A program made the position numbers and the translations under genes. A DNA stretch of 64,000 nucleotides, taken from the NCBI RefSeq assembly GCF_003859805.1, contig NZ_RQZG01000004.1, positions 124,001-188,000 on the forward strand. The letters run 5' to 3'. Positions 27,812 to 52,384 of the stretch are shown here, piece by piece. Source of the stretch: Arachnia propionica. GTDB taxonomy: Bacteria > Actinomycetota > Actinomycetes > Propionibacteriales > Propionibacteriaceae. Every line of letters begins with the position of its first letter. The stretch's first letter is position 1. Under the pieces are notes generated by a model. The model ran no database searches and was not told the DNA's origin. It saw nothing but the letters and a program-made list of their open reading frames with translations.

Positions 27812-27834
27812 CAATGAAGCTTGAAGGAGAGCTG

Positions 27835-30033
27835 ATGTCTCAACCACTGAAACTGATACGTCTGCTGGTGACCTGCATCGCCGTCACCGCGGCGACCCTC
27901 CTGGGGGCCGTCACCGTCCGGGCCGACGAACCGGGACGCACCGGGCTGCAGTCCTTCGACCTGGATCGGGACCTCGACCTGGGGTGGACCAGTCAGAAAC
28001 TCGCCGACGGTGGGACCGCAGGATTCACCTGCTCCCGCATCCCGGCCCTGACCACGGCCAACAACGGGTGGGTCATCGCCGCGTGGGACGGCCGTCCCGG
28101 TACCTGTGCCGACGCGCCCCAGCCGAACTCCATCGTCTACACCGTCTCCAAGGACGACGGGGCCACGTGGAGTGAGGTCAAGGTCATGGCCCAGGGCAAC
28201 CCCGATCCCGAGCAACGCGGTTTCTCCGACCCCAGTTTCGTCGTGGACCGGGAGACCGGACGGATCTTCGCATTCTTCGTCATGAGCTACGACTGGGGGT
28301 GGCCGCAACGTGACCGCACCATCACCGACCCCAGGCACGTCATGCACGCCGTCCACTTCCACTCCGACGACAACGGCGAGACCTGGGAGGGGCCCACGGA
28401 GGTGACCGACGCCCTCAACCCGGCCCCGAGGAACGAGGTCTGGACCGGGCGTTTCGCGGCCTCCGGTGAGGGCATCCAGCTGAGGTACGGCACCCATGCC
28501 GGACGACTGATCCAGCAGTACACCGTCTACAACACGGTCACCGACGACTACTGGGCGGTCTCGCTGTACTCCGACGACCACGGCGCCACCTGGCAGGCCG
28601 GAGCCCCCGTCGGCCCCGGCATGGATGAGAACAAGGTGGTGGAGCTCTCCGACGGCACGGTGATGCTCAACTCCCGCAAGTCCGACGGGACCGGCGGCCG
28701 CTACGTCGCCCGGTCCACCGACGGGGGTGAGACCTGGTCCGAGCGCACCACCGACCACACCCTCATCGACCCCCAGAACAACGCCTCCATCATCCGCGCC
28801 TTCCCGAACGCCCCCGAGGGATCGGCCGACGCGAAGGTATTGCTGTTCTCGAACTCGGCGGCGTCCTCGCGCACCAACGGCACCATCAGGGTGTCCTTCG
28901 ACGACGGCCGTACCTGGAGCGATTCCACGGTCTTCGAGCCCGGGGCGATGTCCTACTCCACGATGACCACGCTCGCCGACGGGTCGCTCGGGATCCTCTA
29001 CGAACGGTCCCATCCCACCATCTGGTTCGGGAAGCTGTCCTGGAAGTCGCTGGGGGCCACCGGCATCACGATGACCTCGCCGACGGTGCTCCACCGTGGT
29101 GAGAACCAGGTCGAGATCACCATCGCCAACCCCGTCGGTGAGGCCCTGCCCGCCGGGCAGCTGCACCTGAGCACCCGTGGCGGCCTGACGGGTGATGCCA
29201 TCCAGGTGCCGACCGTCCCGGCTGGTGGAACGGTCACCGTCATGGTCCCGCTCACCCTGCCCGCCGACGCCAACCCGGGACCCCTCACCCTCCAGGGCAA
29301 CTACGTGGTGGAGGGCCGCACCGTGGTCAAGGAGATCCCGGTCACGGTCGAGCTGCGCGACGGCGAGGAGATCACCGACAAGCTGCTGGAGGTGCTGATC
29401 AATCGCAAGTCGGAGCCGCAGGAGTCCTACCAGGCGGGCGACAAGGTGTCGTTCTGGGTGCGGGTCAGCAACCGGGCCGACCACGCCATCACCGCCTACC
29501 CCGTCGGCGACGGCTGGGAGAACCTCTTCCCGACCTGCCGGTGGGCCAACCTGCCCACCCAGCCACGCGGCAACTACAACTGCGGGCTGACCGGCAACTC
29601 CGGGAACAACCCGCCCACCTACACCATCACCGCCCAGGACATCGAACGTGGCTGGTTCATCCCCACGATGACCTGGAAGGTGGCGGCGGCGAACGACCGG
29701 GAGGCCAGGAACCCGATCCAGACCCTCACCTTCACCGGTGAGAAGGTGCTGTTGCCCACGTCTCCGCAGGAGACCCCGGAGCCGAAGCTGGAGCTCTCCA
29801 CCGCGGTGGTGCCGTACCGCACGATCCTGATCGCCAGGCTGAGCGGTTTCCAGCCCGAGGAGCAGGTGGCCCTCCAGGTCGGCACCCGTCGGGCCCGCAC
29901 CGTGACGGCGGACGCCGAGGGCAGGGCCACCCTGCACCAGGCCATCGACCGCCGCAGCTGCCCTGAGACCTGCACGGTCACGGCGACCGGGGAGGCCTCC
30001 GGCCAGGTCAGCGCCGAGTTCCGTCGAGGCTGA
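27835..30033 (+). CDS. Secreted sialidase (GH33) with C-terminal accessory domains
   Basis: Exo-alpha-sialidase, 732 aa, acting outside the cell to release sialic acid from host glycans. Signal peptide MSQPLKLIRLLVTCIAVTAA with cleavage near VRA-DE. The catalytic propeller shows the Arg motif SRIP and five Asp boxes: SKDDGATW (about 105), SDDNGETW (177), SDDHGATW (246), STDGGETW (295) and SFDDGRTW (356). Tyr in YSTMTTLADGSLGILYERS fits the nucleophile region. After about residue 405 come a NEW3-like beta-sandwich, another beta domain, and an ~80-residue C-terminal domain (from about 653) with a Cys pair. That last domain is shared with the small protein at 50936. No LPxTG anchor. The ATG at 27835 has AAGGAGAG upstream. 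Confidence 0.95.
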   Translation: MSQPLKLIRLLVTCIAVTAATLLGAVTVRADEPGRTGLQSFDLDRDLDLGWTSQKLADGGTAGFTCSRIPALTTANNGWVIAAWDGRPGTCADAPQPNSIVYTVSKDDGATWSEVKVMAQGNPDPEQRGFSDPSFVVDRETGRIFAFFVMSYDWGWPQRDRTITDPRHVMHAVHFHSDDNGETWEGPTEVTDALNPAPRNEVWTGRFAASGEGIQLRYGTHAGRLIQQYTVYNTVTDDYWAVSLYSDDHGATWQAGAPVGPGMDENKVVELSDGTVMLNSRKSDGTGGRYVARSTDGGETWSERTTDHTLIDPQNNASIIRAFPNAPEGSADAKVLLFSNSAASSRTNGTIRVSFDDGRTWSDSTVFEPGAMSYSTMTTLADGSLGILYERSHPTIWFGKLSWKSLGATGITMTSPTVLHRGENQVEITIANPVGEALPAGQLHLSTRGGLTGDAIQVPTVPAGGTVTVMVPLTLPADANPGPLTLQGNYVVEGRTVVKEIPVTVELRDGEEITDKLLEVLINRKSEPQESYQAGDKVSFWVRVSNRADHAITAYPVGDGWENLFPTCRWANLPTQPRGNYNCGLTGNSGNNPPTYTITAQDIERGWFIPTMTWKVAAANDREARNPIQTLTFTGEKVLLPTSPQETPEPKLELSTAVVPYRTILIARLSGFQPEEQVALQVGTRRARTVTADAEGRATLHQAIDRRSCPETCTVTATGEASGQVSAEFRRG

Positions 30034-32294: not shown

Positions 32295-32306
32295 TCCATC
32301 GCATGG

Positions 32307-33704
32307 TCAGGGCTGGTCAGCGACCAGGGCCTCGGCGGTGTGGGCGATCGTCTCGACGAGCTCCCGGTCGTTCCGCAGATCGGGGGCCAACCAGCCGAGC
32401 ACCCGGGCGGCGTCCTCGACGAAGGAACCACCCACCAAGGCCCGCACCTCTGGCTCCGCGCTGTCCTTCAGCGGGGCACCGTGGCCTCGCAGATGCAGCA
32501 GCCACGCGGCGAGTGCCGTCACAGCGGCCCGGGGAAGCTGTCCCCGCTCCCGCCAGGCACGCACCGTCGGCATGATCCGCACCGGGAGCTTCTGAGATCC
32601 GTCGGCAGCGATCTGGGCCAGCAGATGCCGGATGTTGGGGTTCTCGTACCGGGAGACCAGAGCCCTGGTGTACTCCTCGTGGGGAACCCGAAGTCCCGGT
32701 GCGGCCTCTTCCCACCAGCTGTGGACCAGATCCCGCAGCCGGGGGTGAGCGATCGCCTCCGCGACGGTGGTCACCCCGAGCAGCGGACCCGTGTAGGCGA
32801 GCAGGGTGTGGGAACCATTGAGCAGCCACAGTTTGCGTTGCTCATAGGGCTCGACGTCGTCGACGATCATCGCCCCAGCCGACTCCCAGTCCGGGCGACC
32901 GGCAGGGAAATCACCGGAGATCACCCATTCACTGAACGGCTCGGTCGGCACCGGTGCACGGTCCAGGTATCCCTGCGTGGTCTGCACGGCAGTGATCTCC
33001 GCATCCGTGGTGGCAGGGGTGATCCGATCCACCATGCAGGTCGCCCAGCTGACGTTCTCCGCCAGCCAGGGCAGTACATCCGGTGCCGCAACGGCCGCGG
33101 CATCGGTGACCACACGGGCGAACGACGGCCCGTTGTCCGGCAGGTTGTCGCAGGGCAGGATCGTGATGGCACCGGCATCCGCGGTGGCACGTGCCACGAG
33201 TCCGGCCAGGAGCCGAACCGGTGCGGTCCCGAGCGTCAGGGAACCCAGCCGGGCCGGATCAACACCTCCCGTGAGAGCCGTGGCCAGCACCTCCAGGTCC
33301 GTGGCCACCGGGACGGCGGAGACATCGAGTCCTCCATCCGGGCGACGCCAGTACCCGGCCTCCGTCACCGTCGAGGTCACCACCGTCACGTCGGGGTCGG
33401 CCAGGTACCGCACCAGGGCCTCCAGGTCGTCCGCCGGATGGACCCGTGAGATCGAGGAGATCACCTCGAAGCCGTCCCCGTCGGCCCGTTTCGTGATGAG
33501 TGTGTAGAGCCCGTCCTGCGGGGTCAGCCACTCCGCGACGGTGGGGCGACGGCCTGTGAAGGCGGCGATGCCCCACCGGTCACGATCCGAGGCGTGCTCG
33601 GTGTACCAGGCCTGATGGGCACGGGTGAAGTTCCCGAGACCGAGGTGGACCATGCGGATGGGTCCGGCCGGTCGGCCATGGGTGTCACGGGTGAGTTCAG
33701 TCAT
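32307..33704 (-). CDS. uxuB: Fructuronate reductase / mannitol dehydrogenase family (UxuB)
   Basis: NAD-dependent polyol dehydrogenase family enzyme (465 aa) predicted to reduce D-fructuronate to D-mannonate. The N-terminal nucleotide-binding start MVHLGLGNFTRAHQAWY, the EWVISGDFPAGRPDWE segment and the KLWLLNGSHTLLAYTG catalytic stretch (Lys plus Asn/His) are family hallmarks. It overlaps uxaC (ATGA), which supplies its substrate. That pairing favours fructuronate over mannitol or tagaturonate. It ends the seven-gene minus-strand operon. The usual next enzyme, mannonate dehydratase (UxuA), is not in this window. Confidence 0.88.
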   Translation of the reverse strand: MTELTRDTHGRPAGPIRMVHLGLGNFTRAHQAWYTEHASDRDRWGIAAFTGRRPTVAEWLTPQDGLYTLITKRADGDGFEVISSISRVHPADDLEALVRYLADPDVTVVTSTVTEAGYWRRPDGGLDVSAVPVATDLEVLATALTGGVDPARLGSLTLGTAPVRLLAGLVARATADAGAITILPCDNLPDNGPSFARVVTDAAAVAAPDVLPWLAENVSWATCMVDRITPATTDAEITAVQTTQGYLDRAPVPTEPFSEWVISGDFPAGRPDWESAGAMIVDDVEPYEQRKLWLLNGSHTLLAYTGPLLGVTTVAEAIAHPRLRDLVHSWWEEAAPGLRVPHEEYTRALVSRYENPNIRHLLAQIAADGSQKLPVRIMPTVRAWRERGQLPRAAVTALAAWLLHLRGHGAPLKDSAEPEVRALVGGSFVEDAARVLGWLAPDLRNDRELVETIAHTAEALVADQP

Positions 33705-35143
33705 GGGAGTTCTCCTTGCTGGTCCAGTTTGAAGACGTGTCGGGGTTGGGTGGTCACGAGGTCGATGGCGGTCTCCAGGGCCTCTGCCTCCTCCAGACGG
33801 TGCTCGGTCACCAGGCCCGCCAGGAAGGCGCAGTCGACACGACGTGCCGCGTCGTGCCTGGCGGGGATGGAACAGAACGCGCGGGTGTCGTCGATGAATC
33901 CGGATCCCTTGCGGAGGCTGCCGTATCCCGTGACGGCACGGCGATGGCGCATCATCGCGTCGTTCTCATCGATGAACCACCAGGGTGCTCCGATGAACAA
34001 CCCCCGGTACCAGCCCGCCAGGGGGGCGAGTTCACGGGAGAACACGGTCTCGTCCATGGTGAACACCACGAGGTGGAAACCGTCAGCATTGCCGTAGGTG
34101 TCCAGGATGGGGTGCAGCGCATTCGCGAACTCGACGGCGATGGGGACATCCCCGCCGACATCGGCTCCGTAGCGCTCGAGTGTCGCCGTGTCGTGATTGC
34201 GGAACACCGCAGGATGGAGGGTCATCACGAGCCCGTCCTCGACGGCCAGGCGAGCCTGGTCATTGACCATGTGGCGTCGCAGCGCATCGGCCTCATCGGT
34301 GGTGATGACACCGCCGAGGGCACGGCGGAACAAGATCTCGGCGGTTCCCTCGTCGAGTCTCTCGCAACGGGCGTCGCGGTGTGAATGATCCGAGGAGACG
34401 GCGCCGTGCTCCCGGAAGTACTGCCGACGTCGACGCATCGCCTCCAGGTGCTCGGCGTAGCCGGTGATCTCGATCCCGGCGCTCTCACCCAGCCGTTGGG
34501 TGAGCTGCACCCAGTCGGCGCGGGCCGGCTCCAGGTAGCGGTCAGGACGGAAGGTCGGCATCACCCGCGAGGTCCACGACGGGTCATCAGCCAACCGGTC
34601 GTGTCCATGAAGGTCATCACACGGATCGTCGGTGGTGGCCAGGGCCTCGATGTTGAACCTTTCGTAGAGGGCGCGAGGACGGTACTCCGGGCGCTCCAGA
34701 CAGGCGGCGATGTGGTCGTAGATCAGGTCTGCGGTCTCGGCGCTCGGGACAGCCGTGATGCCGAAGACCTCGACGAACTGCGACGCGAACCAGTAGGCGA
34801 CCTGGGTGCCGCGGAAGATCGGCCAGTGGGTGCAGAACTGCCGGAACGCCTCGCGGGCCCGGGTGGGCGACAGTGGTGTCCCGACCGGGACCCCGAGCTG
34901 CGACAGCTCGATGCCGGCGATGCCGTGGAGCAGCCTGTTGGTGTAGTGGTCCGGGGTGAGCAGCAACGATGTCGGATCCTGGAACGGTCGGTCCTCGGAC
35001 AGCCATTCCACGGGGACGTGGCCGTGCGGGGAGATGATCGGCAGGTCCTTGACCGCTGCGTAGAGCTCGCGTGCCACGGCACGGGTGGTCGGGTCGGCGG
35101 GGAGGAGCCGATCGGGATGGATGGACAGGGTGGCAGGGGTCAT
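33701..35143 (-). CDS. uxaC: Glucuronate isomerase (UxaC)
   Basis: Metal-dependent isomerase of the amidohydrolase superfamily (480 aa, normal length) converting D-glucuronate to D-fructuronate. The N-terminal metal motif HGHVP lies at about residue 40. Further hallmarks are EDRPFQDPTSLL, YERFNIEALATTDDP and the C-terminal GWYRGLFIGAPWWFID. It starts in an ATGA overlap with lacI and ends in one with uxuB. It receives glucuronate released by UidA in the same operon. Confidence 0.95.
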   Translation of the reverse strand: MTPATLSIHPDRLLPADPTTRAVARELYAAVKDLPIISPHGHVPVEWLSEDRPFQDPTSLLLTPDHYTNRLLHGIAGIELSQLGVPVGTPLSPTRAREAFRQFCTHWPIFRGTQVAYWFASQFVEVFGITAVPSAETADLIYDHIAACLERPEYRPRALYERFNIEALATTDDPCDDLHGHDRLADDPSWTSRVMPTFRPDRYLEPARADWVQLTQRLGESAGIEITGYAEHLEAMRRRRQYFREHGAVSSDHSHRDARCERLDEGTAEILFRRALGGVITTDEADALRRHMVNDQARLAVEDGLVMTLHPAVFRNHDTATLERYGADVGGDVPIAVEFANALHPILDTYGNADGFHLVVFTMDETVFSRELAPLAGWYRGLFIGAPWWFIDENDAMMRHRRAVTGYGSLRKGSGFIDDTRAFCSIPARHDAARRVDCAFLAGLVTEHRLEEAEALETAIDLVTTQPRHVFKLDQQGELP

Positions 35144-36183
35144 CTTTGGGCCTTCCGTCTCGTGGTTCTCGTTCCAGCAGGGGCGATGCTGTCCCTGAAA
35201 TGGGCATGCATGGGGACGACGATCCGTTCCGCCCGTGAGGAGGAACGGTGACGGAGTTGATTGACCAGGGCCCGGGCCGCGCGGGAGCCCAGATCGTGCA
35301 GCAGGGGAGCCACACTGCTCAGCTTCGGTGTGGTGATGACCGAGGAGATGGAGTTGTCGATGCCGACCACGGAGACGTCAGCGGGGATGTTCCACCCCGA
35401 TCGTTGGGCAGCGTGCATGAAGCCGATCGCCATGAGGTCGTTGTAGGCGATGACCGCCGTGGTCGGACTGGACTCCCAGTCGTTGTGGGCCGCCACCCCA
35501 CCTTCCAGGGTGGGAGGGTACGCCTTGACCCTCCGGATGCTCAGCTGCAGCTCATGGCAGGCCTCCGAGATGGCCCGCCAACGCATCCCGTCAGCCCAGG
35601 AGGCAGGTGGGCCGGAGAGGTAGGCGAAGCTGACGTGTCCCAGCGAGGCCAGGTGTTCCACGACACGTCGCATGCCACGACCGGTGTCGGCGACCACGCT
35701 CGTCAACCCTGAGACGATCCGGTTGATCGAGACCACGGGACGCACCTTGGCCAGTTGCAGGATCGCCTGGTCACTGAGTCGTGACGCGGCGAGGGACAGG
35801 CCATCGACGAAGGGTGAGATCCGGGTGATGTGCTCCCTCTCGATCTCAGCGCTCTCCCGGGTGTCGATCGCGATGACGGCGAAGCCGTACAGCTCCGCCT
35901 CAGCCTCGAAGCCGCGGAGCACGTGTGCGAAGACCGGGTTCGCCGCATCGGCGATGGACATCCCCAGCACCTGTGTCGCCGTGCCCGGTTCCCCGGTCCT
36001 GACCGCCTTGGCGCGGTAGCCGAGTTCGTCGGCCACCCGCCGAACGTGCTCCGCCGTGTCCTGGTTGACCCGACCGGGACGGGCGAAGGTCCGGGACACG
36101 GTTGACGGGGCGACTCCCGCAGCCCTGGCGATGTCGTAGATGGTGACCCGCTTGCGGCGTGACCCCTCGGGGTCGTCAGTCAT
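35140..36183 (-). CDS. LacI family transcriptional regulator of the hexuronate operon
   Basis: 347 aa. N-terminal LacI helix-turn-helix VTIYDIARAAGVAPSTVSR with hinge helix, then a periplasmic-binding-protein-like effector domain (VLGMSIADAANPVFAHVLRG, FAYLSGPPASWADGMRW, VSVVGIDNS). Unusually it lies inside the operon, between larC (8-bp overlap) and uxaC (ATGA). It is therefore made only when the operon is transcribed, giving autoregulation. Probable effector: a hexuronate or hexonate. Its operator is not obvious; the shared direct repeats upstream of uidA and gnd are candidates, though their geometry is not classical for LacI. Confidence 0.9.
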   Translation of the reverse strand: MTDDPEGSRRKRVTIYDIARAAGVAPSTVSRTFARPGRVNQDTAEHVRRVADELGYRAKAVRTGEPGTATQVLGMSIADAANPVFAHVLRGFEAEAELYGFAVIAIDTRESAEIEREHITRISPFVDGLSLAASRLSDQAILQLAKVRPVVSINRIVSGLTSVVADTGRGMRRVVEHLASLGHVSFAYLSGPPASWADGMRWRAISEACHELQLSIRRVKAYPPTLEGGVAAHNDWESSPTTAVIAYNDLMAIGFMHAAQRSGWNIPADVSVVGIDNSISSVITTPKLSSVAPLLHDLGSRAARALVNQLRHRSSSRAERIVVPMHAHFRDSIAPAGTRTTRRKAQR

Positions 36184-37501
36184 GGTCGACCTCCTCGGGC
36201 CAGTGCTCCCCCGGCCGGAGCCCTGCCCGCTGTGCCTGTCGTTGCGCGGTGGCCAGGGCGATGCGCTGCGACCAACCGGTCAGCTCGGCCAGCCGTTCGA
36301 CATCCTTGAACTCGATGGTGGCGTGTCGGATCAGGTGCCCGTCCCCGGCGATCTTCACCTGCACGTCGAGTCCCTCGACCTGGATCCGGCGGAAATCACG
36401 ACGCAGCAGCCGACGCTGCTGCGGGGGGCTGATGCGCACTCCCAGGGTGCTGGTGTGCTCGAGCATCGCCCGGGTGAGATCGTCGACGTCGCGGGGATGG
36501 GCGAGGACGCACAGTGTGTGGGCGGGGCGGCCCTTCTTCATCACGATGGGCACCAGCCAGGCGTCGAGTGCGCCTGCACCGAGAAGTGTCTCGAGCACCC
36601 CCGGCCACAGCCTGGGGTCGAGGTCATCCACGTTGGCGGCGATCTCCTGCACCTCGTCCATCAGGTGCACGTCCCGCAGGGGTGTTCCGAGGACAGCTCT
36701 CAGCACTCCTGCCCGATCGGTCCGTTCCCTGCTGCCCGCGCCGACCCCGGTGGCATCGACGCGCATCGGGGGCAGGTCCGTGACCCCGGAACACAGTGCC
36801 CGGATCAGGGCCATCCCGGTGGGGGTGCACAGCTCACCGACCTCGGCAGGGCCACCGGCGTCGACCAGCCATCCGGTCGCGAGTTCCAGCACGGCCGGCG
36901 GAGGCACGCTCATCACCCCGTGCTGGGTGCGGACCGTTCCGGCCCCCAGGGCCGTGACCGAGGACGTGGCACGAATGACCCCGAGGGTGCGCACCGCCTC
37001 GCACACGGCGACGATGTCACCGATCGAGTCGAGGGCGCCGACCTCGTGGAAGTGGACCTCCTCGACGGTGACCCCGTGCACCTTCGCCTCGGCCTCCGCC
37101 AGCAGGGTGAAGGCCAGCGTGGCCGTCTCGCGGGTCGTCCCAGGGATCGCGGAATCCTCGAGAAGCTCCAGGACGTCACCCAGGTGTCGTACCGGAGGAT
37201 GGGGCTCGTCCGCCAGCACGTCGACCTTGCAGGCGGTGAAGGGGCCCCGTCGGAGTTGCCGTCGTTGGAGACGGAGCCGTCCCGGGGCGACGAGCTCGAG
37301 AACCGCAGCGACGCTGCCGGCGTCGGCCCCGGCGCCCAGCAGGGCAGCGAGCAGCATGTCCCCGGAGGCTCCCTGGGAGGTGTCCAGCCACAGCAGTCGC
37401 TGAGGTGTCGGCGATGGTCGGATGACGCCCGGAAGGATCGCCTCTCCTCGGGGCACCTGCTGTCCGTCCGCCGTGGGCAGGGTGGTCAGGTGGTCGTGCA
37501 T
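36176..37501 (-). CDS. larC: Nickel-pincer cofactor nickel insertase LarC
   Basis: CTP-dependent enzyme that inserts nickel into the pyridinium-3,5-bisthiocarboxylic acid mononucleotide made by LarB and LarE (441 aa). The N-terminus LLWLDTSQGASGDMLLAALL, the VEEVHFHEVGALDSIGDIV segment (His and Asp/Glu rich) and the C-terminal VDDLDPRLWPGVLETLLGAG are typical. In Lactiplantibacillus larC is split and joined by frameshift; here it is one continuous frame. Start at ATG 37501, overlapping the larB stop. An upstream open frame to 38395 is a shadow of larB and larE. Confidence 0.93.
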   Translation of the reverse strand: MHDHLTTLPTADGQQVPRGEAILPGVIRPSPTPQRLLWLDTSQGASGDMLLAALLGAGADAGSVAAVLELVAPGRLRLQRRQLRRGPFTACKVDVLADEPHPPVRHLGDVLELLEDSAIPGTTRETATLAFTLLAEAEAKVHGVTVEEVHFHEVGALDSIGDIVAVCEAVRTLGVIRATSSVTALGAGTVRTQHGVMSVPPPAVLELATGWLVDAGGPAEVGELCTPTGMALIRALCSGVTDLPPMRVDATGVGAGSRERTDRAGVLRAVLGTPLRDVHLMDEVQEIAANVDDLDPRLWPGVLETLLGAGALDAWLVPIVMKKGRPAHTLCVLAHPRDVDDLTRAMLEHTSTLGVRISPPQQRRLLRRDFRRIQVEGLDVQVKIAGDGHLIRHATIEFKDVERLAELTGWSQRIALATAQRQAQRAGLRPGEHWPEEVDHD

Positions 37502-38172
37502 CAGGACTTCCTGTCCGCGGCGATCTGAGCCGCCAGGTGACCGGCACCGTAGCCGTTGTCGATGTTGACCACCCCCACCCCGGGGGCGCAGGAGCTGAGC
37601 ATCGCCAGGAGGGCAGCGACCCCGGAGAACGTGGCACCGTAGCCGACGGAGGTGGGAACCGCGACGACGGGGCACCGGCTCAGTCCTGCCACCACGGGGA
37701 CCAGTGCCCCGTCCATGCCCGCGACGACGATGATGACCGTGGCCTCCTCCAGCGCCCCACGGTGGGCCAGGATGCGGTGCAGACCAGCCACTCCGACATC
37801 GGAGATCTCCTGCACCGGTCTTCCCAGGTGGGAGGCGGTCAGGGCCGCCTCCCGGGCGACCGGCAGGTCGGAGGTGCCGGCACACACCACGAGGACCTGC
37901 CCACCGGTGGGCGGGGGTGGGGCGGGTGGCCACACGACCATGCGGGCATCGAGATGATGAGCCGCCTCGGGAAGGATGTCCGCGATCCCGGCGGCCTGTT
38001 CCTCCTCGACCCGGGTGAACAGCAGCGGACCGAGCTCTTCGGTTGCCGCACGCTCCCGCCAGAGGGTGGCGATCTGCCGGAGTTGTGCCACGGACTTGCC
38101 ACTGCACAGCACTGCCTCGGGAAAGCCTCGACGCTCGAACCGGTCGAAGTCCAGATTGGGCATGTGGGTCAC
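37501..38172 (-). CDS. larB: Nickel-pincer cofactor carboxylase/hydrolase LarB
   Basis: Carboxylates the pyridine ring of nicotinic acid adenine dinucleotide and hydrolyses it, the first step of Ni-pincer nucleotide synthesis (223 aa). The N-terminal half includes AVLCSGKSVAQL. The C-terminal half is the PurE-like domain: VVCAGTSDLPVAREAALTA, IIVVAGMDGALVPVVAGL, PVVAVPTSVGYG and VGVVNIDNGYGAG. Start taken as GTG 38172, a GTGA overlap with larE and GGGG upstream; ATG 38163 is the alternative. The gene lies in order larE-larB-larC, all overlapping. Confidence 0.94.
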   Translation of the reverse strand: MTHMPNLDFDRFERRGFPEAVLCSGKSVAQLRQIATLWRERAATEELGPLLFTRVEEEQAAGIADILPEAAHHLDARMVVWPPAPPPPTGGQVLVVCAGTSDLPVAREAALTASHLGRPVQEISDVGVAGLHRILAHRGALEEATVIIVVAGMDGALVPVVAGLSRCPVVAVPTSVGYGATFSGVAALLAMLSSCAPGVGVVNIDNGYGAGHLAAQIAADRKS

Positions 38173-39011
38173 GGTGTTCCCCCTGACTGCAGCTGGAGCG
38201 TGAACACCCCGGAGCGGATCCCGGCCAGATCCACGGTGACATGGGTGAACCCGACCTCCCGCACGGAGCGGAGCACGGAGCTTCGCACCTGTGGGTCGGC
38301 GAGACGGTGGAGTTCTCCCTCGGGGACCTCGATGCGTGCGGTCTCCCCGTGGTGTCGAACCCGACAATCGGTGAAACCGGCGGTGAGCACCGCATCCTCG
38401 GCGTGGTCGATCTGGGCGAGCTTCTCGGGGGTCACTGGGTCGCCGTGGGGGATCCGGCTCGCCAGGCAGGGTGATGCGGGTTTGTCGGCGCTCGGTACCC
38501 CGAGAGCGCGTCCCAGTTCCCGGATCTGGGCCTTGGTCAGGCCGGCATCCGCCAAGGGGTGGCAGACGGCGTGTTCGATCGCGGCCCGACGGCCGGGGCG
38601 GTCCGGGCGGGCCAGGTCGTCGGCGTTCTCCCCGTAGGCCACGGCCTGGATCCCGAACTCCGCCAGGCGGTTCCCGATGTCCACGAACAGGGTGTTCTTG
38701 CAGTGGTAGCAACGGTCCAGGTCGTTTCGGGCGTAGCGGGGATCCGTGACCTCCTGCGTCGCCAGCTCCACCAGCTCGAGCCCGAGATGGCGGGCCTGCC
38801 GCACGGCGAGGGTGTGTTCACGTCGTGCCAGGGACGGGGAGACCGCCAGCAGCAGGAGCACGGCATCGGCACCCCGAAGCCGTGCGATGACGGTGGCCAG
38901 GACACTCGAGTCCACGCCGCCGGAGTAGGCCACGCCGATCCTGCCGTGGGGCAGGGCCTGCTCGACGTCGTGCACCCATCGGCGTTGCTCAGAGGTCAAG
39001 GGAGTGCTCAT
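38169..39011 (-). CDS. larE: Nickel-pincer cofactor sulfur transferase LarE
   Basis: ATP-dependent sulfur insertase that converts the carboxylates of the LarB product to thiocarboxylates (280 aa). The PP-loop is VAYSGGVDSSVLA (about residue 27). Cys residues lie in DLDRCYHCKNTLF and in ASPCLASRIPHG. The latter corresponds, I believe, to the sacrificial Cys of Lactiplantibacillus LarE; the extra CxxC suggests the version that uses a [4Fe-4S] cluster and is catalytic. Start ATG 39011 overlaps the uidA stop (ATGA). A frame extending to 39149 lies inside uidA. Confidence 0.93.
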   Translation of the reverse strand: MSTPLTSEQRRWVHDVEQALPHGRIGVAYSGGVDSSVLATVIARLRGADAVLLLLAVSPSLARREHTLAVRQARHLGLELVELATQEVTDPRYARNDLDRCYHCKNTLFVDIGNRLAEFGIQAVAYGENADDLARPDRPGRRAAIEHAVCHPLADAGLTKAQIRELGRALGVPSADKPASPCLASRIPHGDPVTPEKLAQIDHAEDAVLTAGFTDCRVRHHGETARIEVPEGELHRLADPQVRSSVLRSVREVGFTHVTVDLAGIRSGVFTLQLQSGGTP

Positions 39012-40768
39012 CCGTTTTGCCCACCGAGCCAGCGTTCGCGCACCTTGTACGCGGCGGCCTTCGGGGTCCTGTCCCGGGTGAACATGCCCTTGCGATTGCC
39101 TCCCACACGCATGATGCCAGGGATGGTCTGGAAGTCCGCGAAGTTCCACGTCTGCTCTCCGACCACCTCCGGGAACTCGTCGAAGACCCGGTGATACATG
39201 TCGAAGAACTTCTCCTGGTAGTCCTCCGACCAGGGACGCGCCTGGAGGTCACGCATCCCGGCGAGGGTGTCCGGACCGTACTCGGTGAAGATGACCGGTT
39301 TGCCGGGACACAGGCTGATCCACCCCTGGATCTCCTGTCGCAGGAGGGACTCGGCCAGGACGAGGTCGTTGTTCTGCCAGTACCAGCCGTAGTAGCGGTT
39401 GAGCATCACGACGTCGAACAGGTCGATGATGCGCTCCTTGTCCGGGGTGGAGATCATGACGTTGACATAGCCGACGGGTCGGCTCGGGTCCGCCTCCCGG
39501 GCAGCGGCCGCGAGGGGCTCGAAGTAGCTGCGTGAGGCATCCGTGTGGGACTCCGGCTCATTGGCGATGGACCACAGCACCACGCTGGGGTGGTTCTTGT
39601 CTCGCGCAATCAGTTCCCGGATGTGGGCCTCGTGGACCCGCTGGGTCTCGGCGTTGATCGTGTCCTGGCTGAAGGTCACGGTCGGTTGGTTCGGGCTGCC
39701 GAAGATGCCTCCGCTGATGCCGATGTTGAGGCCGACGGCGGCGGTCTCGTCGATGACGACGATGCCCTGCTGGTCCGCGAAGTCCATGACCTCATCGGCG
39801 TACGGGTAGTGGGAGGTGCGGAACGAGTTGGCCCCCTGCCAGCGCATCAGCTCGAAGTCGTGGACCATCATCACGTCGTCGTGGCCCTTGCCCCGCACGA
39901 GGTTGTCCTCGTGCCTGCCGTAGCCCTTGAAGTGGAACGGGCGGCCGTTGATGAGGAACTGGGAGTCCCTCACCTCGACGGTACGGACCCCGAAGGGTTG
40001 GGGGTAGAGGTCGTCATCGGCGATGACCTCGAGGGTGTACAGGTAGCCCCGGCCGGGCTCCCACAAGGTGACCTCCGGGATCTTCACACGCCCCTCGGCC
40101 CCCTCGGCCCGGGCCACGACCTGCTGCTGTGCGTCGAGGATCCTGACCCCGATCTGCCGGGCACCGTCGGCGACCACCCGATAGTTGACGGTGCCATCCA
40201 GCTCAGTGGTGATCGTGACGTCACTGACGGCGACGGCCGGGCGGGTGATGAGTTTCACGCCGCGGTGCAGGCCCGCGTAGTTGTAGAAGTCGTGGAAGTA
40301 GCGTTGGTGGATTCCGGACTCCTCAACCTCGAGGTAGCCGGGAGGAATGCTCTGCCAGGACAGCCGGTTGTCCACGGCGACCGTGAGCAGGAAGGATTCT
40401 CCCGGGACCACGTGGTCGGTGATGTCGGCCTCGAAGGGCAGGTATCCGCCGACGTGCCGTGCGACCTCCTGGCCGTTGACCCACACCGTCGCGGCATGGG
40501 TGGCGGCCCCGAACCAGAGGTGCAGTCGGTCCCCGTCATGGAGCCGGGGAGCCTGGACGCGACGCTGGTACCAGACCTCCCCGACGTGGTCGTGGACGTG
40601 AGGCGAGACCGTCACGTCGTTGTACGAGGAGGGGACGGGCATCGGTCGCGGCTCGGGCAGGGGATTCCCGGCCCAACCGGCCTCGCGACCATCCGCGTCG
40701 AGTTGGAACTCCCACACGCCGTCCAGTGGGGTCACGGTTCGAGACGGAGAGGTACGGGGGAACAGCAT
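39008..40768 (-). CDS. uidA: Beta-glucuronidase (GH2)
   Basis: Intracellular GH2 beta-glucuronidase (586 aa) freeing glucuronic acid from imported glucuronides. The jelly-roll N-terminal domain (GVWEFQLDADGREAGW, VWYQRR) and Ig-like domain are followed by the TIM barrel with acid/base Glu in WSIANEPESH and nucleophile Glu in PVIFTEYGPDT. The glucuronide-specific NxK motif is present in VGGNRKGMFTRDRTPK, which marks true glucuronidases over galactosidases. No signal peptide. ATG 40768 has GAAGGAG upstream. First gene of the operon uidA-larE-larB-larC-lacI-uxaC-uxuB, divergent from the transporter gene. Confidence 0.96.
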   Translation of the reverse strand: MLFPRTSPSRTVTPLDGVWEFQLDADGREAGWAGNPLPEPRPMPVPSSYNDVTVSPHVHDHVGEVWYQRRVQAPRLHDGDRLHLWFGAATHAATVWVNGQEVARHVGGYLPFEADITDHVVPGESFLLTVAVDNRLSWQSIPPGYLEVEESGIHQRYFHDFYNYAGLHRGVKLITRPAVAVSDVTITTELDGTVNYRVVADGARQIGVRILDAQQQVVARAEGAEGRVKIPEVTLWEPGRGYLYTLEVIADDDLYPQPFGVRTVEVRDSQFLINGRPFHFKGYGRHEDNLVRGKGHDDVMMVHDFELMRWQGANSFRTSHYPYADEVMDFADQQGIVVIDETAAVGLNIGISGGIFGSPNQPTVTFSQDTINAETQRVHEAHIRELIARDKNHPSVVLWSIANEPESHTDASRSYFEPLAAAAREADPSRPVGYVNVMISTPDKERIIDLFDVVMLNRYYGWYWQNNDLVLAESLLRQEIQGWISLCPGKPVIFTEYGPDTLAGMRDLQARPWSEDYQEKFFDMYHRVFDEFPEVVGEQTWNFADFQTIPGIMRVGGNRKGMFTRDRTPKAAAYKVRERWLGGQNG

Positions 40769-40832
40769 GGCACTCCTTCGGGTCCGGTGGGCTGTTTTCA
40801 TTGGATCAAGTCCGGCGATCCACCCCGCCAGA

Positions 40833-40881
40833 TTGCCATTTGTTGCCGGCCTGGTCCGGGGAGCGCGGCAACATTCGGCAA
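40833..40881. promoter_or_regulatory. Paired direct-repeat operator between uidA and the GPH transporter
   Basis: TTGCC (40833) and TTGCC (40843) are 10 bp apart. After 19 bp come the mirrored GGCAA (40867) and GGCAA (40877), again 10 bp apart. The right element read on the minus strand is TTGCCGAATGTTGCC, one base different from TTGCCGAATCTTGCC at 46407. Ten-bp spacing puts each pair on one face of the helix. Probably the control site for both divergent promoters. Confidence 0.65.
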
Positions 40882-40959
40882 GTCAGGGGATCCGAGTCGC
40901 CGGGGTGGGAGGGTGGGCACCACGCCGCGACGCTGCGGCAGCCGCGAGAGGAACCACAG

Positions 40960-42387
40960 ATGACACCCACCACGTCGGGGACCACCAGACGCCCCTTCGG
41001 AATGCGCGACAAGATCGGGTACATGTTCGGTGATTTCGGCAACGATTTCACCTTCATCCTGCAGTCGGCGTTCTTCATGCTCTTCTACACCAACGTCGTC
41101 GGGATCAATCCCGGCCACGTCGGGCTCCTGCTGCTGACGGCACGGGTGCTCGACGGCTTCACTGATGTCGGCATGGGAATCCTCGTCGATCGCCTACCGG
41201 TCAAGGCCGGCGGGGCGAAGTTCAAGCGGTGGATCAAGTTCATCGCCATCCCGGTGGCGGTTGCCTCTGCGCTGATGTACATGGCCTTCGTCGCCGACTT
41301 CGACTCCTACACCGCGAAGTTGGTGTGGATGTGCGCCACCTACATGTTGTGGGGGTCGGTGTGCTACACCGCGGTCAACATCCCCTACGGTTCGATGGCC
41401 TCGGTGGTCTCCGACAATCCCGACCACCGCGCAGAGTTGTCGGTGTTCCGTTCCACCGGTGCCACCCTTGCGCAGCTCATCATCATGGGGGCGCTTCCCC
41501 TGCTGGTCTACACCACGAACGAGGCTGGGGTCTCCGTCCTGTCCGGGCCTCGGATGAGCATCGCGGCCGCCGTGTGCGCGGTCCTCGCGGTCGGATGCTA
41601 CGCCCTGTGCTATCGGCTGGTCGAGGAGCGCGTCCCCTCCGGCTCGGGCAAGGACGGGACCAGCCCCGGGATCGCGACGATGCTGCGCGCGGTCTTCACC
41701 AACCGTGCGTTGCTGGGGCTCATCGTCGCAGCCATGCTCCTGCTGCTGTCGATGCTCTTCCTGGGCCAGATGGTCAGCTACCTGTTCCTCAACTACTTCG
41801 GGGACGGCAAACTGTCCTCTCCCGCCTCGATCGCGGGCATCGCCCCGGCGTTGCTGCTGATCGTGCTCGCACCGATGCTGTCCAGGCGGTTCGGCAAGGC
41901 CGAGACCGGGATGGTCGCGATGTTCGGTGCCGGGGCCCTGTTCGTGCTGGCCTTCTTCATCAAGATCCAGAACCCGGTGTGGTGGATCGTCGTCTATGCC
42001 GTCGGGATGTTCGCCATCTCGGTGTTCAACTACCTGGTGTGGGCCTTCATCACCGATGTGATCGACTTCCAGGAGGTCCGCAGCGGCTCCCGTGACGACG
42101 GGACCGTCTATGCGATCTACTCCTGGGCACGCAAGCTCGGTCAGGCACTGGCCGGCGGTCTCACCGGATGGTCGCTCGGACTCATCGGCTTCGACGCGCA
42201 GGCCGCGAAGCAGGGGATGGCCCAGACGCCGGAGGTCAACGAGGGGATCTACATGCTGGCCAACCTCGTCCCCGGTGTCGGGTGCCTGCTGGTCGGGGCA
42301 GCCCTGTTGTTGCTCTACCCGCTGAAGAAGTCCGTGGTCGAGGAGAACACCAGGACCCTGCGGGAGCGTCGTGCCGCCAAGGCCTGA
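40960..42387 (+). CDS. GPH-family sugar (glucuronide):cation symporter
   Basis: 475 aa, twelve hydrophobic segments, of the glycoside-pentoside-hexuronide symporter family. The start is typical: MRDKIGYMFGDFGNDFTFI, then DVGMGILVDRLPVKAGGAKF with the Asp/Arg loop, VNIPYGSMASVVSDNPDHR, and ITDVIDFQEVRSGSRDDG in the second half. Being divergent from the glucuronidase operon and sharing its operator, it is most likely a glucuronide importer like UidB/GusB. I chose ATG 40960 (MTPTTSG), with AGAGGA upstream, over a frame extending through the intergenic operator. Confidence 0.9.
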   Translation: MTPTTSGTTRRPFGMRDKIGYMFGDFGNDFTFILQSAFFMLFYTNVVGINPGHVGLLLLTARVLDGFTDVGMGILVDRLPVKAGGAKFKRWIKFIAIPVAVASALMYMAFVADFDSYTAKLVWMCATYMLWGSVCYTAVNIPYGSMASVVSDNPDHRAELSVFRSTGATLAQLIIMGALPLLVYTTNEAGVSVLSGPRMSIAAAVCAVLAVGCYALCYRLVEERVPSGSGKDGTSPGIATMLRAVFTNRALLGLIVAAMLLLLSMLFLGQMVSYLFLNYFGDGKLSSPASIAGIAPALLLIVLAPMLSRRFGKAETGMVAMFGAGALFVLAFFIKIQNPVWWIVVYAVGMFAISVFNYLVWAFITDVIDFQEVRSGSRDDGTVYAIYSWARKLGQALAGGLTGWSLGLIGFDAQAAKQGMAQTPEVNEGIYMLANLVPGVGCLLVGAALLLLYPLKKSVVEENTRTLRERRAAKA

Positions 42388-42398
42388 TCCGGACCGCT

Positions 42399-42432
42399 GT
42401 GTGGCCCGCCCCGGCTCCGGGGCGGGCTACAC
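42399..42432. terminator. Bidirectional terminator between GPH transporter and larA homologue
   Basis: GC-rich hairpin with arms 42399-42414 and 42417-42432, complementary apart from one G.T pair. It is very stable (GCCCGCCCCGG/CCGGGGCGGGC core) and lies between two convergent genes. No U-tract. Confidence 0.7.
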
Positions 42433-42503
42433 CATGTGTGCCGGGAGCACACGTCGTTGTCGGGCGGGTTCTCGCAACCACGTGCTGAGCCTCGCGGCCC
42501 GGC

Positions 42504-43802
42504 TCAACCCTGGGCCCCGGACCGGACCCGGTGCAGCAGTTCCCCGGCGTTCGGCACGACGAGGGTGTCGGGATCGGCCTCGAGAGCGAGGAGGTCGACC
42601 TCCTCGGGGTCCAGGTGTCTCAGGCCCAAGGACTCGACGACCTCACGCGGGATCCCCGTGGCCAGGGTCACCGTCACCCGGTTGGTCTCCACCCCCGTGA
42701 CCGGGTCGTAGTCCCCGAGCCCACGGAGATGGGTCGAATGGGCCAGTTCACCCCACGGATGGTTCTTGAACCGGTCCCACTGCTCGACGTAGTACTGCCG
42801 GTTGTGGTAGCCGATCTCCAGGATTCCCGGATGCATCACCGACACCTCGGTGATGTGGGGTGCGTAGATGATGAGCTCGCCGCCGTCGGCCACCACGGGC
42901 TCCAGCTTGTAGAACCCCTTGGCCCCGGTCCACATGTCCTCGTACATCGTCGGGATGAGCGAGACCACCCGCGGGTAGGTGCGGTCGACATGGCGCACGT
43001 GGACCTGGCTGGAGACCTCCGCGCATGCCTCCCATGCGGTCCGGGAATCACCGAAGGCCAGGAAGTTCAGGGAATCGCTGCCCGGGGCCACGATCATGCC
43101 GAGGAGCAGTTTCGTCGCGGGGATCAGTTCGGTGGCGGCGTCGATCATCTGCCTCACCGGCGTGATCCCGGTGGCACCGATCATCTCGTGGGAGGTGATG
43201 AGCGCACCCACCCAGTGCGACATGTCGATCACGTCATGACCCGACAGCCCGGGGTAGAAGTACTTGTTGCCACCCGAGATGCCCACCACCTCGTGTGGGA
43301 GGACCGGGCCGAGGATCAGGCAGATGTCGGTCTCGACCGCCATCCTGTTCACCAGTACCCGCATCGGACGATCCCGCAGCCTGCCGGAGGTCAGCTCCTC
43401 GATCCGTGCGGCAGGGATGGTGCCGAGGTCGGCAAAGGTGTCCTCGTCACGCCACCGGTGGTTGTGGATGCTCCAGCCGGGGTAGGTCTGCTCGAACCTC
43501 CCGGGCTCGCACCCCATGAGACGGGCGATGGCCTCGTCACCCATGTAGTCGTGGGTACCGAGGGCGATGACCACCCGCACCGAAGCCGGACGTGACCCGA
43601 GGGCGTCACGGATGTGTTTCGACAGCTGGGCGACGGGAGCATGGCGGGTGCCGTCCGGGACGATGAGGGTGATGTGTCTGCCGTCAAGATCGTGGGTGCT
43701 GAGACAGCGGTGGACGAAGTCCCGGATCTCCTCATCGGTCAGGGTCCGCTCGGGGCCACCGACGGACTCGGCCTCGGCGACCCCCGGGTAGAGTCTGGTC
43801 AT
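42504..43802 (-). CDS. LarA-family nickel-pincer racemase/epimerase (candidate mannonate/gluconate 2-epimerase)
   Basis: 432 aa member of the lactate racemase superfamily, which uses a nickel-pincer nucleotide to move a hydride at C2 of alpha-hydroxy acids. Visible hallmarks: LIVPDGTRHAPVAQLSKHI, VIALGTHDYMGDEA, HNHRWRDEDTF, the presumed cofactor-binding Lys in ISGGNKYFYPGLSG and the presumed Ni-ligand His in IDMSHW. The complete cofactor pathway LarBCE lies in the facing operon. Neighbours are a sugar-acid kinase, Gnd and the uronate enzymes, which make D-mannonate. Its C2 epimer is D-gluconate, so I infer that reaction. A lactate racemase is less likely here. ATG 43802 has GAGGAGG upstream. 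Confidence 0.85.
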   Translation of the reverse strand: MTRLYPGVAEAESVGGPERTLTDEEIRDFVHRCLSTHDLDGRHITLIVPDGTRHAPVAQLSKHIRDALGSRPASVRVVIALGTHDYMGDEAIARLMGCEPGRFEQTYPGWSIHNHRWRDEDTFADLGTIPAARIEELTSGRLRDRPMRVLVNRMAVETDICLILGPVLPHEVVGISGGNKYFYPGLSGHDVIDMSHWVGALITSHEMIGATGITPVRQMIDAATELIPATKLLLGMIVAPGSDSLNFLAFGDSRTAWEACAEVSSQVHVRHVDRTYPRVVSLIPTMYEDMWTGAKGFYKLEPVVADGGELIIYAPHITEVSVMHPGILEIGYHNRQYYVEQWDRFKNHPWGELAHSTHLRGLGDYDPVTGVETNRVTVTLATGIPREVVESLGLRHLDPEEVDLLALEADPDTLVVPNAGELLHRVRSGAQG

Positions 43803-43812
43803 CGTCGCCTCC

Positions 43813-44889
43813 TCACCTGACGACCCTCGCGTTGCCCTCCCACACCGACCAGACCTGGGCCTCGTCCGCGGGAAGGGCATGGTCGCGCAGGGTGGTCGCA
43901 GCCATGGCCCCGGTGGCCCAGCCGAACTGCATGCAGCGTTCGGGGGACCAGCCGTTGAGGATCCCGTGGAGCACGCCGCCGACGGAGGCGTCGCCACCAC
44001 CGATCCGATCGAGCACCTCGATCTCACGCAACGCGGCGACGGCGAACTCTCCCTGTGACCACAGGATCATTCCCCACCGGTGTCGATTGGCCGAGATCAC
44101 CTCTCGCAGGGAGGTGCCGATGCACAGGGCATCAGGGTACTGCTGCCGGATCGTGAGGATCATCTCCCGGTACTGCTCGATCTGCTCGTCGATGTCAGTG
44201 CCTCCCGCCCGGGGACCCGAGATGCCGAGGGTCAGCTGGAAGTCCTCCTCGTTGCCGTAGAGGATGTCGCAGTGGGAGGCGATGGCCGTGAAGGCCGAGG
44301 ACAGCTCCTCCTCGCGTCCCTTCCAGAACGAGGCGCGGTGGTTGAGGTCGAATGAGACCCGGGTGCCGTGTTCCTTCGCCCGTGCCGCCAGCTCGACACA
44401 GAACTCGCTGGTTCTGGGTGACAGCGCGGCGACCAGGCCGGACATGTGCAGGATCTTCACCCCTTCGTCCCGGAACAGCCGATCGAGGTCGAAGTCGGCG
44501 ATGGCCAGGTCGCGTCCCACCTCGCCGGCCCGGTCGTTCCAGACCCGTGGGGCGCGACCTCCGAAGCCTGAGTCCGCGATGTTGAACTGGTGACGGTAGC
44601 CCCAGGCGTCGCCCTGAGCCTTGTCAGGTCCTTCGTAGGCCATGCCGCGGGCCCGCAGGTCGGCCTTGATCAGTGAGGAGATGGGCGAACCTGCCACGAA
44701 GTTGGTCAGCACCTTGGTCGGGAGCCCCAGCGCAGCCACGACGGAGGCCACGTTGGTCTCGGCCGAGGTGGCCTGCATCAGGAAACGACTCGAGACGTGC
44801 ACCGCCTCCCGGTTCTCCGGCGTGAGGCGTACTCCCATCGAGGTGGGGACCACCAGTGCCCAGCGGGCGTCATCGCGCAATTCCATCAT
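43813..44889 (-). CDS. PfkB-family sugar-acid kinase (KdgK-like; gluconate or 2-keto-3-deoxygluconate)
   Basis: Ribokinase-like kinase of 358 aa. Substrate-side features are ATSAETNVASVVAALGLPTK and HMSGLVAALSPRTSEF. The catalytic loop is VLDRIGGGDASVGG, the GGGD variant seen in 2-keto-3-deoxygluconate kinases rather than the usual GAGD; the base Asp is kept. Start ATG 44889 overlaps the gnd stop (ATGA) with GGAGG 7 nt upstream. Placed between gnd and the LarA homologue it would phosphorylate gluconate to 6-phosphogluconate, feeding Gnd. If a mannonate dehydratase exists elsewhere it could instead act on KDG. The sequence alone does not decide. Confidence 0.82.
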   Translation of the reverse strand: MMELRDDARWALVVPTSMGVRLTPENREAVHVSSRFLMQATSAETNVASVVAALGLPTKVLTNFVAGSPISSLIKADLRARGMAYEGPDKAQGDAWGYRHQFNIADSGFGGRAPRVWNDRAGEVGRDLAIADFDLDRLFRDEGVKILHMSGLVAALSPRTSEFCVELAARAKEHGTRVSFDLNHRASFWKGREEELSSAFTAIASHCDILYGNEEDFQLTLGISGPRAGGTDIDEQIEQYREMILTIRQQYPDALCIGTSLREVISANRHRWGMILWSQGEFAVAALREIEVLDRIGGGDASVGGVLHGILNGWSPERCMQFGWATGAMAATTLRDHALPADEAQVWSVWEGNARVVR

Positions 44890-46340: not shown

Positions 46341-46406
46341 GGGGGTCCTTCGTGGTCGTGACTTGGTTCCCCCAGCATGCTCAGCCCGGACGTGTGGGAT
46401 CGCTGG

Positions 46407-46447
46407 TTGCCGAATCTTGCCACGGGTTTCGTGACAATTCACGGCAA
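46407..46447. promoter_or_regulatory. Paired direct-repeat operator between gnd and GH3 genes
   Basis: TTGCC (46407) and TTGCC (46417) are 10 bp apart, followed after 11 bp by the mirrored GACAA (46433, one mismatch) and GGCAA (46443). The outer arms form a perfect 9-bp inverted repeat TGGTTGCCG/CGGCAACCA (46404-46412, 46442-46450). Same architecture as 40833-40881, with a central gap 8 bp shorter. Confidence 0.65.
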
Positions 46448-46522
46448 CCACACCGCCACGGGGAGAGCCGGTGGTTGTCTCGAGGGAAACCACTGGAAGA
46501 CAGCCGCGAAGGAGTGGACGAG

Positions 46523-48286: not shown

Positions 48287-48294
48287 GGGAGAAC

Positions 48295-49206: not shown

Positions 49207-49307
49207 GTCGTTGCCCTCCCCGCTGCACCGACACGGCCTGTTCCCGTCGGGCTCACCCGTCCCGGGTCGGAGCAGGGTGGGTGAAACGGATGTGGTGGTC
49301 AACGGGC

Positions 49308-49313
49308 TAGGCT
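49308..49313 (+). promoter_or_regulatory. Candidate -10 element of the kinase/regulator operon
   Basis: TAGGCT is followed by 7 nt and then the GTG start, the pattern of a leaderless mRNA. No clear -35 is visible. Confidence 0.4.
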
Positions 49314-49320
49314 CGGACAC

Positions 49321-50935: not shown

Positions 50936-51328
50936 ATGAATCCTGTGAAACTGACCCTGGCCCGCACGGCGGCAGCGATGCTGACCGCCGCAGCGCTCGT
51001 GGTTCCTGCGACCGCACATGCCGCTGCCCCTCGGATGGCGCACCCGATGGTGCCGATGCCCGCGCAGCCGACGGTGGAGCTCTCCACCAGCGCGGTGCCG
51101 CACCGCACCCTGCTCGTGGTCAAGGTGAGCGGCTTCCAGCCCGGTGAGCGCATCCAGGTCCGGGTGGGTGGGCGTTCCGCACGCACCGTCGTCGCCGATC
51201 AGGGCGGCCGGGCCAGCACTCATCGCGTGATCGACCGTCGGACCTGCGGCGCCGGCTGTGCCGTCACCGCTACCGGGGCGACGTCCGGGCAGGTCAGCGC
51301 CGAGTTCCAGGGCCTGCGCCGACGCTGA
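50936..51328 (+). CDS. Small secreted protein with the sialidase C-terminal domain
   Basis: 130 aa with a signal peptide (MNPVKLTLARTAAAMLTAAA, cleavage near AHA-AA), a short Pro/Met linker and one ~80-residue domain. The domain is nearly the same as the end of the sialidase: VELSTSAVPHRTLLVV, SGFQPGERIQVRVGGRSART, VIDRRTCGAGCAVTATGA, SGQVSAEF. Two Cys are positioned for a disulfide. Function unknown; the shared domain suggests cell-surface attachment or binding to the same partner as the sialidase. ATG 50936 has AGGAGGG upstream. Confidence 0.8.
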   Translation: MNPVKLTLARTAAAMLTAAALVVPATAHAAAPRMAHPMVPMPAQPTVELSTSAVPHRTLLVVKVSGFQPGERIQVRVGGRSARTVVADQGGRASTHRVIDRRTCGAGCAVTATGATSGQVSAEFQGLRRR

Positions 51329-51373: not shown

Positions 51374-52384
51374 GTGACGATGTCCGAGCGCCAGCAGGAT
51401 CTTCTCGGTGCCCCGCGATGGCAGCAGGCCGGGCGGGTGATCGACTGGCACATGGAGACCCTGGGGGCGGCCGACGGCTGTTCCCCCGAGGAGATCGACC
51501 GGATCGAGGAACGTCTTGGGCAGCCCCTGCCGACTGCCCTCAGGGAGTGGTTCGAGCTGCTGGGACACCGCCTGCAGGCGGTGCGGGACATCCCGGCGAC
51601 CCCGCAGGACATCCAGCTGCGCGACGGCCTGGTCGAGGTGTGGCGTGCTGCCGCGGGGGAGTGGTCCCTGGCCGCGCCCTCCGGTGAGGACCCGACGCTG
51701 CACCTGGGCGGGAACGAGGCCCCGCTCAGCACCTGGCTGGTCGCCATGCTGATGTCGGAGACCCTGGTGGGGGCGTGTCGGGGCGAGCTGCAGGGTCCTC
51801 TCGGGCTGCTGTACTTCAGCATCATGGGTGGTGAGGTCGACCATGCCGCGCCCGACGTCCTGGCGACCGTCCGGGAGGACTACACGCCCTTCGCCCTTCC
51901 CCTGCCGACCCCGGAGGAGTCCTGGTACTTCGACGGGGGAAGCGTGATTCGTCTTGGTGCCTCCGGGCGGCTCGAGTGGGCCATCGCCACGCACCAGGCC
52001 TACCATCGCATCGATGCACTCCTCGGTCTGGCTGCGGGCGTGACCCAGGTGCTCGCCCGGGTCACCACCCCCACCCCCGAGGAGATCCAGCTCATCCTCG
52101 AGACCGAGGAGGAGGGCCGGGTCCACTTCTTCGGCGGTCAGGAGGTCCTGGACGCCGTGTGGGAGCTGGGCGACATCGAGCACATGATGCAGCGAACCGT
52201 CGAACCGACCTCGATCGAGGTCCTGCTGGTCGCCGACGCCGGCCACGAGGCCCTGTGTGATCTGCTCGTCGAGAAGTTGGCCCCGATCTGGGGAGAACGC
52301 CTGGTCATCGCATGGCGCAGTGGCACCGAGGGAGAGTTCACCGTGGTCCACCCCGACGGCGTGACCGACGTCGTCGAGCACTGA
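51374..52384 (+). CDS. SUKH (SMI1/KNR4)-like protein
   Basis: 336 aa soluble protein. Residues about 33-60 (GCSPEEIDRIEERLGQPLPT followed by ALREWFELLGHR) match the opening of SMI1/KNR4 domains, and a long region with a G-L-L-Y-F strand follows. The C-terminal ~100 residues are not recognised. SUKH proteins often act as immunity proteins but many are housekeeping. No toxin is nearby. GTG 51374 has AAGGAG 7 nt upstream; ATG 51380 is the alternative. Confidence 0.6.
   Translation: MTMSERQQDLLGAPRWQQAGRVIDWHMETLGAADGCSPEEIDRIEERLGQPLPTALREWFELLGHRLQAVRDIPATPQDIQLRDGLVEVWRAAAGEWSLAAPSGEDPTLHLGGNEAPLSTWLVAMLMSETLVGACRGELQGPLGLLYFSIMGGEVDHAAPDVLATVREDYTPFALPLPTPEESWYFDGGSVIRLGASGRLEWAIATHQAYHRIDALLGLAAGVTQVLARVTTPTPEEIQLILETEEEGRVHFFGGQEVLDAVWELGDIEHMMQRTVEPTSIEVLLVADAGHEALCDLLVEKLAPIWGERLVIAWRSGTEGEFTVVHPDGVTDVVEH

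Follow-up and report, generated by a model that had tools for sequence, protein, structure and literature searches.

The locus raises the question of what an approximately 80-residue stretch, found both at the C terminus of a sialidase and in a tiny exported protein, is and does. The initial annotation of the window (the whole 64,000-nucleotide stretch of Arachnia propionica DNA analyzed here) regarded it as an unnamed secreted domain with a conserved disulfide, and possibly as a new sorting domain of this lineage. Below we discuss the two proteins, the fold and relatives of the domain, its duplication and, finally, its likely role.

A domain shared by a sialidase and a small exported protein

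The sialidase gene occupies 27835..30033 on the forward strand, as do all the features described here. The reading frame opens at 27814, but the likely true start is at 27835 (MSQPLK...); the alignment with the orthologue in genus genome G024 begins at residue 8. The product has an N-terminal signal peptide, and its assignment to GH33 follows from a BNR propeller with Asp boxes and similarity to characterized sialidases. The Pfam scan gives a BNR_2 match at 1.9e-27, and the best PDB match is the Micromonospora viridifaciens sialidase 1eut (E 4.5e-109, residues 58-521). Behind the catalytic β-propeller (27985..29013, residues ~58-400, matching 1eut) follow a first β-sandwich (29068..29349, residues ~419-512), which is weakly NPCBM_assoc/NEW3-like, and a second β-rich module (29386..29736, residues ~525-641) with a weak DUF7507 match and a resemblance to a module in other genus sialidases. 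The protein ends with the domain of interest (29785..30030, residues 658-739; Cys codons 29959-29961 and 29971-29973), which terminates EFRRG-stop and carries neither LPXTG nor a membrane segment. AlphaFold2 predicts three β-rich modules behind the propeller, with a low overall pTM of 0.45 from only three input sequences, and the model is compatible with modules arranged as beads on a string. The Ig-like module at 29068-29349 is fast-evolving (54-56% identity to G024), while the adjoining module is conserved (78-79%).

The second protein, 130 residues long, is encoded at 50936..51328 behind an AGGAGG-type ribosome site and has orthologues in G010 and G024. The initial annotation described it as little more than a signal peptide and the domain. 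This description is accurate apart from a short Pro-rich linker: the signal peptide (50936..51022, with cleavage after AHA judged by eye) and the linker are followed by the stand-alone copy of the domain (51071..51325, residues 46-130; Cys codons 51245-51247 and 51257-51259), which has a net charge of +8 and terminates EFQGLRRR-stop.

Both reading frames are as originally described and the shared stretch is genuine. When all six frames of the entire 3.4-Mb genome were searched, the sialidase tail and the small protein were 60% identical over 78 aligned residues (E 1.3e-26); judged from the sequences, this likeness is not due to chance. The motifs named earlier are present in both copies, and across the three species a core is invariant in all six copies: E-L-S-T, V-P-x-R, S-x-F, G-R-A, D-R-R-x-C-x3-C, T-x-T-G and S-G-x-V-x-A-E. 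A discrete exported domain is thus common to the enzyme and the stand-alone protein, and the conserved C-x3-C suggests that it is probably disulfide-bonded.

The close subfamily is narrowly distributed. Only two close copies are present in the genome, and the other matches to the narrow profile lie at noise level; on inspection, these weak matches (G000:C2, C35 and others) turned out to lie in wrong frames or in genes unrelated to the domain. Three of the 39 genus genomes carry the subfamily, each with both forms. Carriers in a public genome scan include Arachnia propionica OH2822_COT-296 and the Propionibacteriaceae MAG S30M_Sa_58. No model in Pfam, NCBIfam or PHROGs matched the domain. Neither the small protein nor the six-row profile, when compared with PDB sequences, gave more than chance matches, and a plasmid collection yielded no match. 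In the open-access literature, we found nothing directly relevant to the domain, the Arachnia sialidase or a terminal LPXTG.

Predicted Ig-like fold and wider family

With the six natural sequences as input, AlphaFold2 models the domain as a seven-stranded sandwich (pLDDT 89, pTM 0.78), that is, a predicted Ig-like β-sandwich. The best structural matches are Ig-type sandwiches, among them chains of the neocarzinostatin family (Z 7.7-9.1, 15-28% identity). Unrelated Ig domains tie with these chains in Z, and the structural match therefore gives the fold and not the family. This has consequences for the reading in which the domain is a neocarzinostatin-type carrier of a small ligand. Structures of that family rank among the best matches (Z up to 9.1), a late Cys pair (C-x4-C) is likewise present in its members from the order, and weak PF00960 matches (0.018-0.1) are seen for Ig domains related to the one studied here. 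However, generic Ig domains score equally well, the domain itself has no PF00960 match at E up to 5, and HHalign against PF00960 members of the order aligned only 16 columns, with 14.6%. Membership in PF00960, suggested by motif and structure, failed both this direct profile comparison and the curated cut-off, and a search of the genome with PF00960 at 1e-5 recovered no protein. We consider a carrier function highly improbable.

Relatives do exist within the Propionibacteriaceae. A profile search of 197 genomes of this family returned matches beyond the three species at 6e-7 to 7e-4. Several are Ig-like domains at the ends of large surface proteins, with an LPXTG-like or hydrophobic tail immediately behind them; some matches of lower rank were in wrong frames. 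HHalign aligned the domain with these pre-anchor Ig domains at 98.6% probability over 79 columns, whereas 20 comparisons with shuffled columns gave no more than 2.4%. In the reverse direction, a profile of the Ig set built without the window copies (A2) was run against the whole genome and recovered both of them (6e-17 and 2e-12), together with three more exported proteins (1.9e-12, 1.8e-6 and 5.0e-6); the strength of A2 is somewhat circular, since it was gathered by similarity to the domain. With the combined profile, the wider Ig-like family is present in 24 of the 39 genus genomes, and those of its proteins with a readable N terminus mostly begin with a hydrophobic, signal-like stretch. This places the domain mostly on exported proteins.

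These results place the domain as a local variant of an ordinary Ig-like building block that is common on exported proteins of the genus. The label "unnamed" stands insofar as no Pfam or NCBIfam model matches the domain and none reaches threshold on the wider-family members scanned; it does not stand insofar as the domain belongs to the Ig-like module. An apparently unnamed domain thereby finds its place in an Ig-like family that is distributed throughout the genus on exported proteins but is not captured at threshold by curated models.

Duplication, gene order and selection

In a tree of the Ig relatives the six copies form one clade (100/98), with the small-protein and sialidase copies on opposite sides of a branch (89/89). 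This topology fits a single duplication that predates the separation of the three species. Between the 5′ ends of the sialidase and small genes there was no homology of the kind expected from a whole-gene duplication; the domain alone is homologous. The small protein would thus represent the module, duplicated once and equipped with a signal peptide of its own prior to the three-species split.

The gene order differs between the genomes. In G024 the small gene lies directly 3′ of the sialidase gene, and in G010 the order is sialidase, ABC transporter, kinase, regulator, small gene, an arrangement pieced together from two contigs with an end overlap of 55 window bases. In both genomes the distance between the two genes is no more than about 5 kb. 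In the window they are separated by a 17-kb stretch (about 32296-49320), which is absent there in G010 and G024 and represents either an insertion in the window or a loss in the other two. The stretch sits between an FtsX-type ABC transporter and a histidine kinase gene. On its 3′ side, the small gene is adjoined in all three species by a gene for a 336-residue, weakly SUKH-1 (SMI1/KNR4)-like protein (51374..52384 in the window, 45 bases 3′ of the small gene), a possible operon partner.

Between species, the stand-alone domain has a dN/dS of 0.21-0.27 and the sialidase domain one of 0.37-0.52, against 0.05-0.11 in the catalytic part of the enzyme. The catalytic part is 90-95% identical to its G024 counterpart, the sialidase domain 54-57%. 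As judged from these substitution patterns, both copies of the domain are under purifying selection. The value for the stand-alone copy argues that the small gene is real and constrained. It also bears on the view that this gene is a decaying, functionless duplicate, in favor of which stand its shortness and its origin from a duplicated domain that the sialidase has as well. That view is very unlikely to be correct: the gene is intact in three species, has a good ribosome site and a conserved signal peptide and, with a domain dN/dS of 0.21-0.27, is more constrained than the sialidase copy. The fast change of the sialidase domain is what one would expect of a spacer or of a surface module that varies, and less so of a specific binding module.

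Sorting signal or accessory module

Does the domain itself direct proteins to the surface and hold them there, as the idea of a new lineage-specific sorting domain implied? The C-terminal position in both proteins, the exported context, the conserved motif and the basic character of the stand-alone copies (net charge +8 to +9, as against +2 to +3 for the sialidase copies and -3 to -17 for the Ig relatives) are in keeping with it. However, only two close copies are present in the genome and only three species have them, LPxTG lies at the end of many other exported proteins of the genome that lack the domain, and the wider relatives often bear a separate anchor or another module behind it. In the 24 loci where the C-terminal context was read, LPXTG lies at most three residues from the stop in 10, a hydrophobic segment with a basic tail follows in four, and another C-terminal module in five; the rest were unclear or read in a wrong frame. 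An anchor behind the domain is thus frequent in the wider family, but it does not define it. Another recurrent Cys- and Trp-rich C-terminal module (NGRxW.T.CE.YS.T.RC.TDIWA ... W.FNN..MF) is found on genus sialidases and surface proteins (L083, L084, L104, L109, L112, L115 and L122).

Behind the two window copies, neither an LPXTG nor a hydrophobic tail was found in any frame, including by frameshift, and the sequence of LPXTG, hydrophobic segment and basic tail that makes up an LPXTG-type signal is lacking in both. The proposal of a new sorting domain is consequently not borne out: the anchors of the wider family are a separate element after the domain, other relatives have different modules at their C termini, and the window proteins are anchorless. 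We regard a sorting or surface-attachment signal as unlikely. Since the module frequently neighbors a separate anchor in its relatives and has none here, it is best regarded as an exported accessory or spacer module and not as a sorting signal. In this way the analysis separates the Ig-like module from the anchor.

The domain is the last of three β-rich modules behind the catalytic propeller of the sialidase, where it is most likely a non-catalytic accessory or spacer. Taken as a whole, the best explanation, which we consider quite probable, is a divergent, Arg-rich Ig-like module with a C-x3-C disulfide, of the kind that Arachnia and other Propionibacteriaceae would use near the C termini of exported proteins; it would serve the sialidase as a non-catalytic accessory or spacer, and one duplication would account for its presence in both proteins. 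This explanation is grounded in the homology, the predicted fold, the exported context, the neighboring genes, the duplication and the purifying selection. The C-x3-C disulfide would be expected to form and, because no anchor follows the domain, both proteins would be released or only loosely held. The basic stand-alone domain might then stick to anionic envelope polymers or host glycans. This is the weakest step of the scheme, and binding of the domain to the envelope or to anionic glycans is a guess. It is distinctly doubtful that the free domain binds either the domain of the sialidase or a ligand common to both; if it did, the small protein would determine whether the enzyme, which has no anchor, is retained at the cell or released.

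A more specific role would be that of a carbohydrate-binding module that keeps the sialidase on sialylated or mucin glycans, with the small protein as a free lectin. An accessory C-terminal β-sandwich on a glycosidase is what such a role would call for, and sialidases elsewhere bear modules of this type; the Micromonospora viridifaciens enzyme carries an Ig-like and a galactose-binding domain. The domain, however, matches no carbohydrate-binding family in Pfam or NCBIfam, the residues that are invariant specifically in its subfamily are Arg, Asp and Cys, with no aromatic platform among them, and the sialidase copy changes fast. This role is therefore conceivable but rather improbable, and the accessory or spacer module remains our preferred reading.

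A by-product of the analysis may carry greater weight than the domain itself. The sortase signal normally includes a membrane segment that holds the substrate. A DNA pattern encoding GLPxTGx-stop (TGA) has 15 matches in the genome and none for the reversed control, and matches occur in 33 of the 39 genus genomes, with control matches of two or fewer per genome. Most of those in the genome lie in a frame whose exported or Pro/Thr/Ser-rich protein ends exactly there, and in the four examples with translated downstream sequence no membrane segment lies behind the motif. Examples outside the window, which have neither a hydrophobic nor a charged tail, are L132 (G000:C24:116574-116597), L137, L138, L124, L133 and L134. 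Sortase-family proteins are encoded in all 39 genus genomes. We found no description of terminal LPxTG proteins without a membrane segment in the open-access papers searched, and we do not claim novelty; the pattern raises the question of how, if at all, these proteins attach to the cell wall.

Comparison with known systems shows how the domain is related to what has been named. The sialidase 1eut shares the catalytic propeller and the Ig-like region behind it, and the match ends at residue 521, ahead of the second module and the C-terminal domain of the window sialidase. The neocarzinostatin family (PF00960; neocarzinostatin, macromomycin and C-1027) has in common an Ig-like sandwich, a late Cys pair and occurrence as actinobacterial exported proteins, whereas the domain has no second Cys pair, is about 25 residues shorter and fails the sequence test. 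The named models nearest to the wider Ig family are Big_3_5 (PF16640), GxPGS_dom (NF058592) and TIG (PF01833), all sub-threshold. The Ig-like domains of Propionibacteriaceae exported proteins (G-x-G-F-x-x-G-E-x-V ... T-A-D-x-x-G ... T-A-T-G-x-x-S-G) share with the window copies a full-length profile alignment, the same motif order, export and C-terminal placement, from which the window copies differ in having no anchor behind them, a C-x3-C pair, an Arg-rich composition, the DRR motif and a stand-alone form.
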